Shown here piece after piece: positions 20,838 through 35,781 of a DNA stretch of 38,754 bases. Both the position numbers and the translations under genes were made by a program. This DNA is from Methanobacteriota archaeon (lineage in GTDB: Archaea; Thermoplasmatota; Poseidoniia; Poseidoniales; Poseidoniaceae). Each line of letters begins with the position of its first letter. Position 1 is the stretch's first letter. Under the pieces are notes generated by a model. It was not told the origin of the DNA, ran no database searches, and saw only the letters and a program-made list of their open reading frames with translations. Where the stretch lies: assembly GCA_949514915.1 (NCBI GenBank), contig CATFLP010000015.1, forward strand, positions 1 to 38,754. Reading direction: 5' to 3'.

Positions 20838-22166
20838 TTACTCATCTAACAATAATTGGATGTCTTGTACAAATAAAAGAGGATCCCAATTAAATCCAGT
20901 CCAAGCAATTCTACGATGATGTTCTTTATCTAAAATATATGTAACCGTACTATGGCCTATATTATATGTATTGGAAGCACCACTTTCTTCTTCCCCAAGA
21001 CTTTGAATGTAATTTGTGATATGTGTAGAAACAGTTTCAAGCATTTTAGTATCATTTAAATTAAATTCACACCATTGGTATATTTCTTGAATAATTTCAT
21101 CATAATGTCCATTTTCGTGTATATATTCCTTCTCGCAAAGCTCATGATTTCTAATTTCAATAGGCAAATAATTAACCCTCTCAACCTCATTATTAATTAT
21201 CGCTATGTTTTTAATTTCGGAATTATACAATGTATTAAAATTTTCAGAATTAGGTTCTAATTGGCTATTTTCCCATTCTTTATTTGTTTCATTCCAAATC
21301 ATGAATTGCCAAGTTTCAAGTAAATCTCCATCAATTCCACTTAGAGTTTCAGTACCATTATTACTAGTAACTTCATAAGAGATATTTTCAGAATTTAACG
21401 AATCTAAAATAAGATTCCATCCCGTTGTATTTTCATCTAATTCGTTTGAATTAATAGTTAAAAATATTGATTCATTCCCGTTATCGATTGTTAACGAATA
21501 ATTTTCAGAATTTAGATAATCAGTATCATTAGTGCTTAAATTAGTATGTTGTGATAACATATTTTCAATATGATTTATTGCACTTGGTGTTTTTACATGT
21601 CTCTGCCCGTTTTCGCTAAACATATTCCAATGTTCTAAAACAATCCACAAGTCATCATACATATTGTCTGATGCATTAACTGGATTTTCATCTATTGTAT
21701 GTGCTTGAATAAAACTTTGATTAACTACAATCCCATAAGAATCCCATACAGATTTTGCAACATCATAATCTGGATGAGTTAAATGATCCCAATTATATCC
21801 TAAACCCTCATGCCAATATTCCTTCATTTTTTCAGTAGTATCCGTCAATGGATCAATAGAGATTGAAAGGAAAACCACCTCTTGCCCATAAGAATCCCCT
21901 AATGCTTCTTTTGCAAGATTCATATTATATTCAATCATTGGGCAAAAATCTGGACACGTAGTAAATGTAAAAGCAACCACAATAATTTTATCTTCAAAAT
22001 CAGATAGTGAAACGTTTTCTCCATCTTGATTAATTAATACAAAATCTGGTGCAGGCCCACCAGGCCATTCAGTGCCCTCAAATTGAGGCCAAGCATCATC
22101 AGATGGAGCCCCAAAACAGCCAGATAAAATAGATAATACAATTAAAGCAGAGATGAATTTCTTCAT
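20838..22166 (-). CDS. SCO1/SenC-like copper chaperone lipoprotein with large internal insertion
   Basis: Exported thioredoxin-fold protein of the SCO family, which delivers copper to the CuA site of cytochrome oxidase subunit II. A signal peptide with lipobox LSGC (C17) anchors it. The domain opens with PAPDFVLINQDGENVSLSDF and has the CxxxC copper pair C71 and C75 (TTCPDFCP). The third ligand, the histidine of the GHSTVTYILD motif, is at H405. In normal SCO proteins that histidine is about 85-90 residues after the second cysteine; here it is 330. The extra part of about 240 residues (roughly 155-395) is Asn/Glu-rich and contains a piece similar to a DUF4430-like beta fold (GWNLILDSLN, WQFMIWN). 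At least 442 residues versus about 200 usual. It lies in the same strand and area as the cox operon. Confidence 0.85.
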   Translation of the reverse strand: MKKFISALIVLSILSGCFGAPSDDAWPQFEGTEWPGGPAPDFVLINQDGENVSLSDFEDKIIVVAFTFTTCPDFCPMIEYNMNLAKEALGDSYGQEVVFLSISIDPLTDTTEKMKEYWHEGLGYNWDHLTHPDYDVAKSVWDSYGIVVNQSFIQAHTIDENPVNASDNMYDDLWIVLEHWNMFSENGQRHVKTPSAINHIENMLSQHTNLSTNDTDYLNSENYSLTIDNGNESIFLTINSNELDENTTGWNLILDSLNSENISYEVTSNNGTETLSGIDGDLLETWQFMIWNETNKEWENSQLEPNSENFNTLYNSEIKNIAIINNEVERVNYLPIEIRNHELCEKEYIHENGHYDEIIQEIYQWCEFNLNDTKMLETVSTHITNYIQSLGEEESGASNTYNIGHSTVTYILDKEHHRRIAWTGFNWDPLLFVQDIQLLLDE

Positions 22167-22225: not shown

Positions 22226-23749
22226 TTATTGCATAACGCCATCATAAAAAGTACCCATATATGCCCCCCAACTAATTTTACTTGGTACAGGTACATTCAG
22301 ATTTGTCCGATACATGTTCCATGTGCTTGTGGGAGAATCAAATGAGGAAGTAGAACTTGAAATCATATCAAGTATTCCATCATTATCAATATCAATAATC
22401 AATGGACTAGCAATACTTAACCCTTCACGATTGAAAAGTGTAGAATTAGTATAGTCACAAGAATTCCAAACTAATATTTCATGATATAGTTGAATGTTAT
22501 TTGGATTATTACTTTCCATTAACATATTTGCCCGAATCATAATTACTTCATCTATTCCATCCATGTTTAGATCTACTGCAAGTGGACTTGAAGCCGCAAT
22601 ATGATTAGTTTCTTCCATCCAAGAAACAACTCCCGTTTCTCCATCAATTTGAGCAGTCCAATATGAACTATATTCTGGCCATTCTCCAATAAGGTAATGG
22701 ATAAAAACATCAGGAATTAAGTCATCAGAAAAGAAACCTACTGCAGGACTAACCCATGTTTCAGCATTATTTGCAGTACCATTTAGTGCATAATCTCTTG
22801 CATCAACTTCCCAAATAGAATCATATCCATTGCCGTTTATGGCAATAGTTCTTCCATCAAACATTGAAACTATGATGTCTTGAATTCCATCTTTTGTTAA
22901 ATCAACAATCGTAGGAGGAGAGATTACGCCTTTGTTTACATTTTCAATCGGTGAAACGAGTTGTAATGATTCAGAAATATCATTGTTTAATAAATCATTT
23001 AAAGTTGTCATCCATAAACTTCCAGGCCATGTTTCTCCCCCCGTACCAAAGAGAATTTTTGTCTTTGATTGACCATTCACTAACTCATCATAGATAACTG
23101 GGGAAACATATGTTTCCATTCCATCAGGGGTATCTGCAATAGCTAATATTTCTCCAGTTGAACCAGACATTATCATTAGATATCCTTTTTCCCTTTCTTG
23201 TTCTGGAGTTTTAGTAGGGTCACCACCATTTGTAGTTAACCAATCAGACACACCGTCATTATCTATGTCTTGAATAAATTGTCCAGTGTAAAATTGATAC
23301 CATTCTTCACGTTCTGTTGAATTATGATTAAATGACCAAAGTAGTTCTCCAGTTTGTCCATTAATTGCTTGTAAATTGTGCCCTCTTCCTCCAAGAATTA
23401 CATCAAGCGAACCATCGCCGTTTAAATCTTCAAATTGTGCTGAAGCGAACATTTCTTGTGTAGTTTCAATATTCCAAAGAATTGTTCCATCATTTCCATT
23501 AACTGCAATTATAGATCCTTCTGCAGGCATTTCCATTCCCGTACCAAAGACAATGTCTAGAATCCCATCACCATTAAGATCAGCAGCATGTGGCGATGAA
23601 AATGTACGGGTTTCACCACTAATTTCCCAGATGTTCTCTAAGTTGTTTGGATTTATTGGAGAACAATCATTATTTTCTCCTTCATCACTTTTACCAAAAC
23701 ATCCACTCGTAATTAATATCACGACAAAAACAGAGAAGAGTTTCTTCAC
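22226..23749 (-). CDS. FG-GAP/VCBS beta-propeller lipoprotein
   Basis: Surface lipoprotein with signal peptide and lipobox TSGC (C17). Seven-bladed-propeller type repeats carry calcium-loop motifs: DLNGDGILDIV, DLNGDGSLDVI, DIDNDGVSDW, DLTKDGIQDII, DLNMDGIDEVI and DIDNDGILDM. Several blades also have the PQQ-like pattern AINGNDGTILWN / AINGQTGELLWS. Such propellers bind ligands or partner proteins; no enzyme site is visible. The 507 residues start at a GTG that lies 23 bases after an archaeal TATA box, so a leaderless mRNA is likely. Its promoter matches that of the SCO-like gene. Confidence 0.88.
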   Translation of the reverse strand: MKKLFSVFVVILITSGCFGKSDEGENNDCSPINPNNLENIWEISGETRTFSSPHAADLNGDGILDIVFGTGMEMPAEGSIIAVNGNDGTILWNIETTQEMFASAQFEDLNGDGSLDVILGGRGHNLQAINGQTGELLWSFNHNSTEREEWYQFYTGQFIQDIDNDGVSDWLTTNGGDPTKTPEQEREKGYLMIMSGSTGEILAIADTPDGMETYVSPVIYDELVNGQSKTKILFGTGGETWPGSLWMTTLNDLLNNDISESLQLVSPIENVNKGVISPPTIVDLTKDGIQDIIVSMFDGRTIAINGNGYDSIWEVDARDYALNGTANNAETWVSPAVGFFSDDLIPDVFIHYLIGEWPEYSSYWTAQIDGETGVVSWMEETNHIAASSPLAVDLNMDGIDEVIMIRANMLMESNNPNNIQLYHEILVWNSCDYTNSTLFNREGLSIASPLIIDIDNDGILDMISSSTSSFDSPTSTWNMYRTNLNVPVPSKISWGAYMGTFYDGVMQ

Positions 23750-23800: not shown

Positions 23801-24163
23801 TTATGGTGAATAACTACCGATGAATTCAGGAGAACACCACGCAGGTAAACCAGCAACTCCTCCAGGGGTTGTAAATGCAATTCCAAGGAATAATATTACA
23901 ACAAAAATAAATGGAAATACAAATGTATATGTCAATTCCCTTTCATCATCCCATAAATGCATGAAGAAAGCAGCAATTCCAAAGAATTTTACAATACCTA
24001 CACTTACTAAAGCAAAAACAGTTGCACCATAAGTTAGACTAAGATATACAGCACCAACTTCAATTGCAGTAAAGACCATTAAAAATACAAAATTCCAAAA
24101 ATATACATCTTGACCTGTTTTTTCATATAGTGCTTTTTGCCAGCCAGTTTGATGTTCGCCCAT
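23801..24163 (-). CDS. coxD: Cytochrome c oxidase subunit IV (CoxD-like)
   Basis: A small accessory subunit of the heme-copper oxidase with three membrane helices (FWNFVFLMVFTAIEVGAVYLS, VFALVSVGIVKFFGIAAFFMHL and FVFPFIFVVILFLGIAF) and the family pattern KFFGIAAFFMHLWDDER, similar to the prokaryotic subunit IV KxxxVxxxFMHL motif. 120 residues. ATG at 24163 has GGTGA placed before it, and the stop TAA of coxC is part of that site, so the two genes are translationally coupled. Last gene of the coxBACD operon. Confidence 0.85.
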   Translation of the reverse strand: MGEHQTGWQKALYEKTGQDVYFWNFVFLMVFTAIEVGAVYLSLTYGATVFALVSVGIVKFFGIAAFFMHLWDDERELTYTFVFPFIFVVILFLGIAFTTPGGVAGLPAWCSPEFIGSYSP

Positions 24164-24173
24164 TTTTTTCACC

Positions 24174-25175
24174 TTAATACAGATAGAATGCCGGGAATAT
24201 TATTACCCATGCTAAATCAACAAAGTGCCAATATAGCCCGTAATATTCAATACTTTGCGCGTTATTGTGATCCCAGCCACCAATATGCGCTTTGTAAATA
24301 AAATATGTTAGGAATACGAGTCCAACAAATACATGTACACCGTGAGCACCAGTAGTTACATAGAAAAAGCTACCAGCAAGTGTTGAAATTGTAAAATCAT
24401 AATCATGAATTAAGTGATTCCATTCCCATAACTTTAGAATTAAGAAAAGAGTACCTAGCATTAAAGTCATAGCTAAATAGTTTCTAACTTTCTTGTCACG
24501 AACTTTAGGATCTAAATCAACATTCTTTGCTGCTTTAAGTGCCAATACTACAGTAAAAGAGGACAGAATTAGAGCAAAGGTATTAATCGCACCAGGCAAT
24601 AATGTCATGAAATCTGCAGTGATATATTCAGCAGCTACATGTTGATAAACAGGAGTACTAGATTCTGTATGCCAAAATGTCTGATTAACTAACCCACCTG
24701 TTGCTTCTTCACATTGTGTTATCATCGGTGTGTGTTTTTCTGACAAACATTCTTTGTAAATTGATTTAGCCGTTGCTCCTGGTGCTGCTAGACTAGAATC
24801 TATTGCTTCCTGAGCCTTATCTAGAAGGGTCCAATGAGTGTTCCAATTTGTTCTCATTCTCATATATGCACCAAAGAATGAACCAAAAATCATAACTTCT
24901 GACATTAAGAAAAGCCAAATTCCAGCTTTACGAATATTCATTCCTCCAAATGGAGTACCGTAAGATTTCAATTCGCCCATTTTCTCGGAACCATCAAATG
25001 GAAGATCTCCTTTCCACCATGTAAATAATCCCCAAATGAGAACAACAAGACCAATTGCAGTAATCCCCATACTTGCTTCAGAAAATCCGTATAGGAATAT
25101 CATGGTTCCTAAAGAAGCGATTATTGGCGCCCAAGATCCATGGTGTCCATGGTCGTCATGATCACCATAACTCAT
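24174..25175 (-). CDS. coxC: Cytochrome c oxidase subunit III
   Basis: Integral membrane subunit of the aa3-type oxidase. Family features: KAGIWLFLMSEVMIFGSFFGAYM, LPGAINTFALILSSFTVVLAL, a GSFFYVTTGAHGVHVFVGL segment (the usual FxxTGFHGxHV motif) and the final YGLYWHFVDLAWVIIFPAFYLY. The N-terminus has a His/Asp/Gly-rich run (GDHDDHGHHG). The loop between helices 3 and 4 (about residues 110-180) is longer than usual and has two cysteines (KECLSEK and TQCEEA). Its ATG overlaps the coxA stop (ATGA). Confidence 0.95.
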   Translation of the reverse strand: MSYGDHDDHGHHGSWAPIIASLGTMIFLYGFSEASMGITAIGLVVLIWGLFTWWKGDLPFDGSEKMGELKSYGTPFGGMNIRKAGIWLFLMSEVMIFGSFFGAYMRMRTNWNTHWTLLDKAQEAIDSSLAAPGATAKSIYKECLSEKHTPMITQCEEATGGLVNQTFWHTESSTPVYQHVAAEYITADFMTLLPGAINTFALILSSFTVVLALKAAKNVDLDPKVRDKKVRNYLAMTLMLGTLFLILKLWEWNHLIHDYDFTISTLAGSFFYVTTGAHGVHVFVGLVFLTYFIYKAHIGGWDHNNAQSIEYYGLYWHFVDLAWVIIFPAFYLY

Positions 25176-27484
25176 TTTGGCTCAACCCCCTTCCACATTC
25201 TTGAGAACATCCCTCCACCAGTAGATTCCACATGGTGCAGGTTATCATCTTCTTGAGTAGGAATTTCATGGAAACTTGGAGTAGGTGGTGGGGATGTTGT
25301 AGTCCATTCTAGGCTCCATCCGCCCCATGGATCTTTTCCACATTTTTCTCCATATTTGTAACTTCTAATAATATTCCATGTTAATATTAATTGAGCAAAG
25401 CCCATAATGAGTGCTGACATTGTAATAAATGAATTTAATTCAGACCAACTATCTACTGAATATGTGTGATAACGTCTAGGCATTCCTTCTATTCCTAATT
25501 GATGCATAGGCCAAAATGTACCATTCATTGCAATAAATGTGATTATAAAGTGCAACAGACCTAATTTTTCATCTAATTTACGTCCAACTGCTTTAGGATA
25601 CCAATAATATATTGCAGAAAACATACCGAATAAGGTTCCACCAACTAAAACGTAATGGAAGTGAGCAACAACAAAATATGTATCGTGGAAATGAGTATCA
25701 AGTCCTGCTACTGGGAAGAACATTCCAGAAATACCTCCCATTGTGAAAGTTACTAAAAATCCTAAAGCCCACAAAGTATGCGTTTTAAACACTAATGATC
25801 CGCCCCATAGAGTGGCCAACCAATTGAATATTTTCACACCTGTAGGTATTGCAACTAACATAGTTGTTAACATCATTATTAATCTGAAAGTTGGGTCCAT
25901 TCCACTTGTTAACATATGGTGGCCCCATACAATGAATCCTAGTACTCCAATGCCTGCTAACGCATATACCATTGATTTATAGCCAAATATTGATCTTTTA
26001 GCGCTTGTTGAAAGAACTTCAGATACTACTCCAAATGCGGGCAAAATAACTACGTATACCTCAGGATGTCCAAAGTACCAAAAGAGATGTGCCCATAATA
26101 TAGGGTCTCCTCCAACTGCAGCATCATAAAAATGAGTACCAATAGTCCTATCAAAATATAGGTAAACTGTACCAATGATTAATGCAGGCAATGAGAGATA
26201 TAACATTGCATTAGCAACAAAAATTGACCATGTAAATAGAGGCATTTTCATCCAAGTTACTCCTGGTGCTCGCATAGTCATTACAGTTGCAATAAAGTTT
26301 ACACCAGATAGTGTAGATGAAATTCCTAACATAATTATTCCTGCAACGAATAGAGTTGTACCCGCGCTAGCACCTTTTTCTCCCAATGAATTAGAAAACG
26401 GAGCATACATTGTCCAAGTAATATCTGCGCCTTCTCCAGACATTACTCCTCCATAAAGCAAAACGCTAGAAAATGCAAGCATCCAGAATCCCATAGCATT
26501 AACTCTTGGAAATGCTAAATCCTTTGCACCAATTTGTAGAGGAATAATCCAATTTGCAAATGCAGCAATCATTGGCATTGCTGCTAAGAAAATCATCGTG
26601 GTACCATGAAGTGTAAAAAATGAATTATATTGATCTTGAGTTAAGAAGTCATTATCCGCTACTGCAAGCTGTAAACGGAATAACATTGCAAAAATTCCAC
26701 CAATCAATAGGAAAAGGAAACTAAATACAAAATAAAGAGTTCCAACTTCTTTATGGTCTGTAGTAGTCATCCATTTCTTTAACCATTCTGTCAATCCGTT
26801 TAGATTAAAACCATCAGGGTTATTTCTATAAAAGACATAAACTAACATTAATGAAAATAATGCAATACCAAAGGTTATTGCAGCAATAGCGACTTCATAT
26901 GGCTCTGCTTGTTCAATTAATATTGCTCCACCACCTAATGCAGCTGCACCAGGTATAGAAGCTTGAAAAGTGCTCCATTTGTCGCCAGAATTACCATCAG
27001 CAGGAATATTTCCAACAGCATTTCCGTTTACAGCATTTCCATGCACTGTAAAGTCTACAATTTGCCCTTCATTATCAGGAGCAGTCCAAACAACAACCCA
27101 ACTTCTCATATCATTTCCTGATTCTGTGTGAGTTATGCCCCCATCCATCACCTGAACTAAATCAGTATAATTTTCTCCAGCACTAAAAGTTCCATCAGTT
27201 GCAAATAATCTAAAACCACCCATATTGCTTGATAGTTCAGCACCTGCAATATTTGGATTTGAAATCGTGATATTCAATTCATAAGATGTTCCACCTACAA
27301 ATGAGTCAGGCATTCCATCAACAATTACAGTTGTAGTTCCTGCTCCTCCAGAGTGACACGCACATCCAGTGGTACCATTTGCTCTATTAACTCCTGTTGG
27401 ATAAGAGGTCATTTGAGGTGTAGCAGCTAAAGCAATAAAAATCACAAACAACAATGAAATCACTCGGATTTTATTTTTATTCAT
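25172..27484 (-). CDS. coxA: Cytochrome c oxidase subunit I with fused N-terminal extracellular CxCH domain
   Basis: Catalytic heme a/a3-CuB subunit that reduces oxygen to water and pumps protons. The oxidase core starts at about residue 239 (MTTTDHKEVG) and has TLHGTTMIF (heme a ligand), FGHPEVY (CuB H473, proton-path E475, cross-linked Y477), GHH (H522-H523) and AHFHYV (H608 and H610). This is the A-type pattern. Before it are about 235 extra residues: a signal-like helix, a GCACHSGG motif (C41-x-C43-H44), a beta-rich domain that resembles the choice-of-anchor V/reeler-like group, and an added helix (about 205-228). Normal subunit I is about 520-600 residues; this is 770. ATG 27484 has GGAAGTGA upstream. 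Confidence 0.95.
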   Translation of the reverse strand: MNKNKIRVISLLFVIFIALAATPQMTSYPTGVNRANGTTGCACHSGGAGTTTVIVDGMPDSFVGGTSYELNITISNPNIAGAELSSNMGGFRLFATDGTFSAGENYTDLVQVMDGGITHTESGNDMRSWVVVWTAPDNEGQIVDFTVHGNAVNGNAVGNIPADGNSGDKWSTFQASIPGAAALGGGAILIEQAEPYEVAIAAITFGIALFSLMLVYVFYRNNPDGFNLNGLTEWLKKWMTTTDHKEVGTLYFVFSFLFLLIGGIFAMLFRLQLAVADNDFLTQDQYNSFFTLHGTTMIFLAAMPMIAAFANWIIPLQIGAKDLAFPRVNAMGFWMLAFSSVLLYGGVMSGEGADITWTMYAPFSNSLGEKGASAGTTLFVAGIIMLGISSTLSGVNFIATVMTMRAPGVTWMKMPLFTWSIFVANAMLYLSLPALIIGTVYLYFDRTIGTHFYDAAVGGDPILWAHLFWYFGHPEVYVVILPAFGVVSEVLSTSAKRSIFGYKSMVYALAGIGVLGFIVWGHHMLTSGMDPTFRLIMMLTTMLVAIPTGVKIFNWLATLWGGSLVFKTHTLWALGFLVTFTMGGISGMFFPVAGLDTHFHDTYFVVAHFHYVLVGGTLFGMFSAIYYWYPKAVGRKLDEKLGLLHFIITFIAMNGTFWPMHQLGIEGMPRRYHTYSVDSWSELNSFITMSALIMGFAQLILTWNIIRSYKYGEKCGKDPWGGWSLEWTTTSPPPTPSFHEIPTQEDDNLHHVESTGGGMFSRMWKGVEPK

Positions 27485-27497
27485 CAATTCACTTCCT

Positions 27498-28217
27498 TTA
27501 ACCACATGCACCTACAACATGCACTTTTGCTAGCATTTTCGAATGTTGTTGGCCACAATATTCTGCACAAAACAAATCAAATGTTCCAGTTTCTTTCGGT
27601 GTGAATGACATGGACGTTTCTATTCCAGGAACAGTATCTTCTTTAATTCCCCATTCTGGAATAAACGGGGCATGCAAGACTGGTAATTCTCCTCCATCAT
27701 TTAATGTGACTAATTTTGCTTTAATTACACGATTACATGGCAAATATAAATTTCCATCGCCAGTATATGCTCCATCTACTATTTCAGTACCAGTCGGAGT
27801 AGTAAATGTGGATGTTGTAAAGTTACCAGTTTCATTTAGTTCAGTTATTAATATCTCATCATGGTAGTAAAAATTCCATCCCCATTGATATGCTTCGATA
27901 GTAATGTCCCATGTATCTTCATCTTCAGAATAAGGATCGACCCACACAGTAATCATTGATTGCCACGCAATAAAAGTAAGATAAAGTACTAGAATAGTAG
28001 GGACAATAAACCATGTTAATTCCAAAGTCAAATTGTCTCTTTCTTTTGGAAAAACTCCTGGTGTTAATTTTTCAGGAGTTTCTTCTTTTGGAGATATTTG
28101 TCTGAATCTAATAATCAAGTAAAATAAAAGAGCGAATGTTAAAATTCCTACCACTAATGACCAAAAATTCCAAGTTTTCATCAAACTTCTAAAAATTGTG
28201 TAATCGGCTGGACCCAT
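27498..28217 (-). CDS. coxB: Cytochrome c oxidase subunit II
   Basis: CuA-carrying subunit that takes electrons from cytochrome c or a copper protein. Two N-terminal membrane helices (about residues 18-38 and 75-95), then a periplasmic-side cupredoxin domain with EAYQWGWNF and the CuA site: the VLHAPF histidine and C217-x3-C221-x3-H225-x2-M228 (CAEYCGQQHSKM). 239 residues from the ATG at 28217, preceded by AGGGAG. A short linker insertion with ETGNFTTSTFTTPTGTE lies in the first beta strands. First gene of coxBACD; the next ATG lies 13 bp after its stop. Confidence 0.96.
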   Translation of the reverse strand: MGPADYTIFRSLMKTWNFWSLVVGILTFALLFYLIIRFRQISPKEETPEKLTPGVFPKERDNLTLELTWFIVPTILVLYLTFIAWQSMITVWVDPYSEDEDTWDITIEAYQWGWNFYYHDEILITELNETGNFTTSTFTTPTGTEIVDGAYTGDGNLYLPCNRVIKAKLVTLNDGGELPVLHAPFIPEWGIKEDTVPGIETSMSFTPKETGTFDLFCAEYCGQQHSKMLAKVHVVGACG

Positions 28218-28255
28218 ACCAATGAACTCCCTAACGTTTATCGGGCACTCATCCC

Positions 28256-28269
28256 AACTATTAATAGTT
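28256..28269. promoter_or_regulatory. Perfect 14-bp palindrome over the presumed coxB TATA box
   Basis: AACTATTAATAGTT is its own reverse complement. Its centre is 45 bp upstream of the coxB ATG; TATTAATA in it fits a TATA element, which would put transcription start about 20 bases before the ATG and leave AGGGAG in the leader. A regulator dimer binding here would block the promoter. Confidence 0.45.
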
Positions 28270-28358
28270 CTCAAGCAGCAATGAACATAGAAGCCATCAT
28301 GTAGGGAACACTACCCTTAATTAATGATGTAATTTTAGAAATTTTAGAGGGTTGTCTA

Positions 28359-35331: not shown

Positions 35332-35781
35332 TTGGCGGCAAAGAAATCTAAATCAAATAGTAAGAAATCAAAGGCTTCTCAGAAGTCTAAAAAGGCAACA
35401 TCGGCTAAGAAATCAGTAGCGGCAAAGAAAGCAGCAGCGACAAGAAAAGCAAATGCTGCTAAGAAAGTAGCAGCAGCTAAAGCAGCAGCAGCTAAGAAAG
35501 CAGCAGCGGCAAAGAAAGCAGCAGCGACAAGAAAAGCAAATGCTGCTAAGAAAGCAGCAGCAGCTAAAGCAGCAGCAGCTAAGAAAGCAGCAGCGGCAAA
35601 GAAAGCAGCAGCAACAAGAAAAGCAAATGCTGCTAAGAAAGCAGCAGCGGCAAAGAAAGCAGCAGCAGCTAAGAAAGCAGCAGCGGCCAAAAGAAAAGCC
35701 GCTGATTTAGCTAAAAAGGGAATCATTAAGTCACCAAAGTTAAGTGATGTACTTTCTAAAATAAATAAAAATAGAAAATAA
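35332..35781 (+). CDS. Histone H1-like Lys/Ala-rich protein with 29-residue repeats
   Basis: A 149-residue, extremely basic protein, mostly Ala and Lys, resembling the C-terminal tails of histone H1 and bacterial HctB/AlgP-type proteins that compact DNA. The N-terminal 25 residues are Ser/Lys-rich (KKSKSNSKKSK). Three copies of a 29-residue unit with AATRKANAAKK follow, the third shortened. The C-terminal 25 residues (DLAKKGIIKSPKLSDVLSKINKNRK) break the pattern and may be a separate interaction tail. It starts at TTG with AGGGGA 5 bases upstream. A nucleoid or RNA-binding role is inferred. Followed by the 59-residue zinc-finger-like gene. Confidence 0.85.
   Translation: MAAKKSKSNSKKSKASQKSKKATSAKKSVAAKKAAATRKANAAKKVAAAKAAAAKKAAAAKKAAATRKANAAKKAAAAKAAAAKKAAAAKKAAATRKANAAKKAAAAKKAAAAKKAAAAKRKAADLAKKGIIKSPKLSDVLSKINKNRK
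35419..35646 (+). repeat. 87-bp in-frame tandem repeat inside the Lys/Ala-rich gene
   Basis: The unit beginning GCGGCAAAGAAAGCAGCAGC starts at 35419, 35506 and 35593 (period 87 bp, 29 codons); the third copy is cut after 54 bp, where another GCGGCAAAG begins at 35647. Copies 1 and 2 differ by single bases (for example GTA versus GCA codons). In-frame expansion or contraction by slippage or recombination is expected. Confidence 0.95.

Follow-up and report, generated by a model that had tools for sequence, protein, structure and literature searches.

A predicted SLBB/DUF4430 module in the histidine-ligand loop of a Poseidoniales SCO protein, and its relatives in other metal-handling proteins

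Introduction

How can a SCO-type copper chaperone keep its copper site when a whole domain stands between its ligands, and what would such a domain do there? The question is raised by a protein of a Poseidoniales (MGII) archaeon, encoded in the 38,754-nucleotide stretch of DNA analysed here, which we call the window. The Poseidoniales, which have not been cultivated, abound in ocean surface waters, and the way in which copper and zinc, both scarce, reach their extracellular proteins is, to our knowledge, not known. A sequence-only reading of the window had proposed that the CxxxC pair and the ligand histidine of this protein are kept apart by an insertion with a DUF4430-like segment, looped out from the SCO fold as a separate domain.

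The SCO protein and the spacing of its copper ligands

The open reading frame encodes 442 amino acids from an ATG start on the minus strand (20838-22166), exactly at the coordinates given by the sequence-only reading, and begins with a signal peptide and a lipobox (LSGC17) that predict anchoring to the membrane by a lipid. Its assignment to the SCO family has held up. In particular, Pfam SCO1-SenC (PF02630) scores 78.5 bits against a cut-off of 22.8, over residues 40-150 only, and a profile of 43 bacterial SCO proteins, fetched by genome scan, matches in two collinear pieces, with profile positions 12-123 on residues 37-151 and positions 125-170 on about residues 395-441; the C-terminal piece alone reaches E = 2e-5 (Z = 1000). 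In this alignment C71 and C75 fall on the SCO cysteines and H405 on the SCO ligand histidine, the positions originally assigned to them, and the histidine of the SCO motif CXXXCXnH (PMC9145763) stands in a SCO-type strand-loop context. On sequence grounds, the 442-residue protein is a true SCO with the intact ligand set C71, C75 and H405.

From the two-piece match the insertion is placed at residues 152-394, that is, about 243 residues, close to the 240 estimated beforehand. The CxxxC-to-His spacing is consequently 334 in the window protein versus a median of 89 in bacterial SCOs, which bears out the figures first proposed (about 330 versus 85-90). Specifically, 61 of the 64 bacterial spacings read by regular expression with the same query lie between 78 and 95, and the three higher values (106, 131 and 263) were judged to be matches of the expression to other histidines.

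The AlphaFold2 model consists of a confident SCO core and a confident domain at about residues 220-330, with low-confidence linkers between them; together with the split of the SCO profile, this agrees with the separate, looped-out domain that had been envisaged. The C-terminal strands and helix adjoining H405 have pLDDT values of 84-96, the block 401-410 averaging only 59. A Foldseek search with the full model returned Sco1 structures with a probability of 1.00 over the N-terminal 110-130 columns, in keeping with a thioredoxin-like SCO fold; since these alignments did not extend across the insertion to the C-terminal part, they carry no information on H405. Linker 1 is modelled as disordered and is nevertheless about as well conserved within the genus as the SCO core, residues 152-219 being identical to those of the same-genus orthologues at 50 of 67 and 51 of 68 positions. 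In linker 2, pLDDT values are low at residues 340-355, 369-371 and 376-404, and both of its cysteines recur in L004 and L005.

Among 32 aligned sequences there is no variation at C71, C75, H405, D105, P106, D109, W126 and a few other residues. H405 is the only invariant histidine and no histidine is conserved within the insertion, so that the alternative in which another histidine serves as ligand finds no counterpart among these sequences. The same layout, with 61-68% identity over the whole length, is found in two other genomes of the window's genus and, as inserted SCOs occur throughout the class, a chance reading frame or an assembly fusion can be discarded.

Table 1. Coordinates of the SCO gene features and of the neighbouring oxidase genes in the window
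Feature	Coordinates	Strand	Evidence
Signal peptide and lipobox (residues 1-17, LSGC17)	22116..22166	-	sequence; G16/C17 nearly invariant (alignment)
SCO core, N-terminal part (residues 28-151), with CxxxC	21714..22085	-	Pfam, bacterial SCO profile, AlphaFold2, Foldseek
C71	21954-21956	-	CxxxC of SCO
C75	21942-21944	-	CxxxC of SCO
Insertion (residues 152-394), His-ligand loop of SCO	20985..21713	-	between positions 123 and 125 of the bacterial SCO profile
Linker 1 (residues 158-215)	21522..21695	-	modelled disordered, pLDDT below 50; conserved within genus
Transcobalamin-like SLBB/DUF4430 domain (residues 220-330), predicted	21177..21509	-	profile, AlphaFold2, Foldseek
Linker 2 (residues 340-404), two Cys	20955..21149	-	mostly low confidence
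Ligand His H405	20952-20954	-	invariant; within GHST motif
SCO core, C-terminal part (residues 395-442)	20841..20984	-	bacterial SCO profile 125-170
FG-GAP/propeller-like lipoprotein, between coxIV and SCO	22226..23749	-	Pfam FG-GAP
Subunit IV (COX4_pro)	23801..24172	-	Pfam
coxC, oxidase subunit III	24174..25175	-	Pfam COX3
coxA, oxidase subunit I, N-terminal choice-of-anchor V domain	25172..27511	-	Pfam COX1; NF041895, TIGR02891
coxB, oxidase subunit II	27498..28274	-	NCBIfam CoxB 131.8 bits, cut-off 147.7; CuA motif CAEYCGQQHSKM

The inserted module

Scans of the window protein against Pfam and NCBIfam gave no name to the insertion. Across the inserted SCOs, iterated profiles define a W-rich module of about 100 residues, present in one, two or three copies per insertion. 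A module profile built without the window's genus matches residues 238-307 of the window SCO (E = 1.5e-10, Z = 1000), which bears out the DUF4430-like segment suspected beforehand. As for PF14478, the module of one relative, L035, scores 27.2 bits against a cut-off of 23.8 in the genome search and 23.3 in an hmmscan of the same protein; the window protein has no Pfam match to this family, and its module is linked through the profile of the module family.

The window domain is modelled with pLDDT mostly at 81-91 and a topology of bb-a-bb-bb-b, and the module of L007, modelled alone, reaches a pLDDT of 93.5 and a pTM of 0.87. The best PDB folds found by Foldseek are 3u7z (TM 0.78 over the target), entitled a putative metal-binding protein, and human intrinsic factor. 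Sequence identity to these solved folds is very low (10-13%), and neither the module profile nor a stand-alone DUF4430 protein retrieved anything from the PDB by sequence, the connection being made by the fold search only. The predicted order of elements, b-b-a-[hairpin]-b-b-b, is that described for the transcobalamin-like clade of the SLBB superfamily, whose members bind soluble ligands (PMC1796856).

Throughout the class the module shows good conservation, with a mean column identity of about 41%. Its two commonest histidine columns reach about 70%, and both histidines are missing from the window protein. No set of histidine, cysteine or methionine residues is conserved in the module alignment; the module, therefore, probably does not hold a metal by itself, and direct metal binding was ruled out as the default reading.

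Oxidase genes next to the inserted SCO

The window SCO directly follows an operon for an aa3-type cytochrome c oxidase (Table 1), and the CuA site of subunit II is the expected target of its copper. Inserted SCO genes also come directly after coxII-coxI-coxIII-coxIV in L075, L076 and L078 and, at the end of the locus, after coxIII-coxIV in L005 and L079, with a COX4_pro gene adjoining the SCO gene in all five. An FG-GAP gene lies beside the SCO gene in the window, L004 and L008, and is absent there in L005. In the Thalassarchaeaceae loci L073, L077 and L080 the short and the inserted SCO are arranged in tandem, and no cox genes were found in the fetched stretch. An apparent COX4-SCO fusion in L191 was rejected as a read-through of masked bases.

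The gene order and the invariant residues bear on whether the protein is still a copper chaperone. It might have become a thiol-disulfide redox protein or a copper sensor, its split site no longer binding copper, as some SCO relatives act in redox and thioredoxin-like reductants, too, score by fold in the Foldseek search. That change of function appears very improbable, however, given that all three copper ligands are invariant and that the gene follows those of a CuA oxidase.

Two further features of the window may be recorded. In coxA, the choice-of-anchor V domain (NF041895, 74 bits against a cut-off of 42), with its CACH motif, precedes the COX1 domain, an unusual fusion that is partly matched in L075. 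At 35332-35781 (+) there is an open reading frame of 149 amino acids, made almost only of KKAAAAK/TRKANAAKK repeats and resembling a histone H1-type tail protein.

SCO relatives in Poseidoniia

A SCO homologue was found in all 58 relatives searched. Inserted SCOs of 350-650 amino acids, with zero to three modules and insertions of varying length, extend across the class Poseidoniia, with orthologues in both families of the order (f1 and f2) and in a sister group (f3; L173, L174, L180 and L181), and the module is present in 243 of 293 genomes of the class. In many members, a four-Cys EGF-like stretch (CxGHG...HCMCDxGY...LSC) follows the modules. The copper site of SCO tolerates the presence of a domain of over 100 residues between its ligands, and of as many as three such domains. 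The sequence-only reading missed this class-wide layout with its varying module number, as well as the module in other metal-handling proteins described below.

In a tree of the SCO core the inserted type stands apart from a short paralogue, which the window genome also possesses (L002); support at the deepest fork is moderate, and the three-module protein of L046 forms a long, unplaced branch. Five members lacking the module (L009, L020, L021, L029 and L032) are nested among the inserted ones, which makes loss of the module likely; as members of the same clade do without it, the module is not essential for SCO function.

Three modules were seen in the SCOs of L046:1225-3141(+) and L048:1324-3069(+), the former having the longest CxxxC-to-His spacing encountered (416). 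In the short paralogue of family f2, a thrombospondin-type-3-like stretch, DSDGDGVADGFDLCPDTPEGE, with a weak Pfam score, occupies the His-ligand loop, where the other paralogue has its SLBB module (L010:740-1468, L011:1995-2723, L015:715-1437 and other loci).

The variability of this loop lends itself to a simple interpretation, namely that the insertion decorates a tolerant, exposed site of a kind into which these archaea readily shuffle surface domains, the module taking no part in copper transfer. It is the main rival to the role proposed below. The number of modules, from zero to three with losses in nested members, fits it, as does the variety of what the same loop accepts: thrombospondin-type-3-like DxDxDG stretches (L010 and L011), His-containing linkers in place of the module (L020 and L021) and EGF-like pieces. 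Mere decoration is, however, hard to reconcile with the conservation of the module across the class and with that of linker 1 within the genus, or with the fact that the module's relatives in the class lie in SCO, ZnuA-type, cupredoxin and small DUF4430 lipoprotein sequences. On balance, we consider it rather unlikely.

The module in other proteins

A search with the module alone, with follow-up fetches, found relatives within the class in SCOs, ZnuA-type proteins, plastocyanin-like proteins and small DUF4430 lipoproteins. As the sample of other proteins was obtained with modules derived from SCO, it favours close copies.

ZnuA-type proteins with the module were found at 12 loci (L166, L167, L171, L172 and L183-L190), to which L210, with the same ZnuA motifs, can be added. 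They measure 690-1154 amino acids, some loci being incomplete, and contain His-rich repeats and, in some, EF-hands; the three module-bearing proteins that were scanned all match Pfam ZnuA, with up to 180 bits. Here the module sits between the HDY of the first lobe and the histidine of DPHSWL, within a stretch that is 430-880 residues long and includes 54-98 histidines. In known ZnuA, a His-rich loop (124-143), whose function is called enigmatic, precedes the ligand His147 (PMC8900738). The window genome's own ZnuA was recovered as two halves lying on separate contigs, G000:C99:20679-21287 (L193) and G000:C21:366-581 (L194), both ending in DHDDHG repeats.

Plastocyanin-like proteins carry one or two modules (L168:242-2080(-), L169:692-2572(-), L170:363-1862(-) and L178:931-2496(+)), and both of those scanned exceed the cut-off of Pfam Copper-bind. 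Cys repeats of the GCMDSTATNFN type are also present in these proteins. What is new here is that close relatives of the SCO module occur in plastocyanin-like proteins and also in ZnuA-type ones, where they too sit in the loop that precedes a metal-ligand histidine.

Outside the class, in other Thermoplasmatota, the module mostly precedes a PQQ-type propeller on its N-terminal side or occurs as tandem copies. The former arrangement was noted on beta-propeller surface proteins of L195, L196, L199-L202, L204, L206, L207 and L209, and tandem copies in L203 and L198. As these propellers have no evident link with metals, metal specificity of the module in general was rejected; its tie to metal proteins characterises the class Poseidoniia and is not universal.

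These relatives also help in judging whether the module simply tethers SCO to subunit II of the oxidase, or else to a donor of copper, as a docking domain that binds no small ligand. In one Sco protein that has been modelled, subunit II is contacted by a face made up of the Cys loop and the His-ligand loop (PMC3994876), so that the module lies in a loop described as part of the docking face, and the module-bearing SCO is encoded in the cox operon. We nonetheless regard docking alone as unlikely: no interaction with CoxII is known for ZnuA or for cupredoxins with the same module, and in genus g2 the module is on the cupredoxin (L170 and L178) and not on the SCO (L021 and L032), which does not fit a simple module-to-module contact. 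Docking of SCO to cupredoxin through their modules was rejected on the same inconsistency.

Possible role of the module

The reading we favour, and hold to be fairly probable, is that the protein is the SCO chaperone for the CuA site of the neighbouring oxidase, and that its looped-out SLBB/DUF4430 module aids extracellular metal handling through a soluble ligand or a partner. A complete extra domain would have been spliced into the SCO loop just before the ligand histidine, with the copper site of C71, C75 and H405 kept; being on flexible linkers, the module would be looped out from the thioredoxin fold, next to the face from which copper is delivered. Placed next to the surface turned towards subunit II, it might bind a soluble ligand or a partner protein, and could thereby help to load or deliver the metal outside the cell. 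We infer such binding from the nature of SLBB domains, which are ligand binders, and from the presence of this module type in ZnuA and in a blue-copper protein; the sharing of the module with ZnuA and cupredoxins is also why a metal-handling role is preferred over pure docking to CoxII.

A bolder and quite doubtful version is that the module is a metal-acquisition adaptor of the Poseidoniia, gripping organically complexed copper or zinc, or a carrier partner, and presenting the metal to a neighbouring chelating site. Following this idea, it would have been spliced independently before the ligand histidine in SCO and in ZnuA, and fused to cupredoxins.

Our literature search found no paper on an SLBB domain with a copper chaperone, and the DUF4430 papers are not concerned with this combination. 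Three families of metal-handling proteins of the Poseidoniales share a small domain whose fold is known, and in two of them it is inserted right before a metal-ligand histidine. The occurrence of the same domain in zinc-uptake and blue-copper proteins suggests that it may be an unrecognised accessory part for extracellular metal handling in Poseidoniia, and this recurrence provides a concrete protein to test for metal acquisition by Poseidoniales.

Comparison with known systems

With the SCO1/SenC family (Sco, PrrC and YpmQ) the window protein shares the CxxxC...H motif, the thioredoxin-like core, the lipoprotein anchor and the linkage to cox genes, but it carries about 243 residues, including a whole domain, in the His-ligand loop, with a spacing of 334 versus about 89. 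Like the transcobalamin-like SLBB/DUF4430 domains, represented by 3u7z and the beta domain of intrinsic factor, the module has their predicted fold and strand order and belongs to exported proteins; unlike them, it is inserted in a copper chaperone, and the sequence identity is only 10-13%. The zinc-binding proteins of the ZnuA/AztC type have a fold unrelated to that of SCO, yet in these archaea the loop before their ligand histidine bears the same type of module, the loop being packed, in addition, with His repeats and EF-hands. Finally, the plastocyanin-like cupredoxins of Poseidoniales also carry the module, but appended after the copper domain instead of inserted into it.
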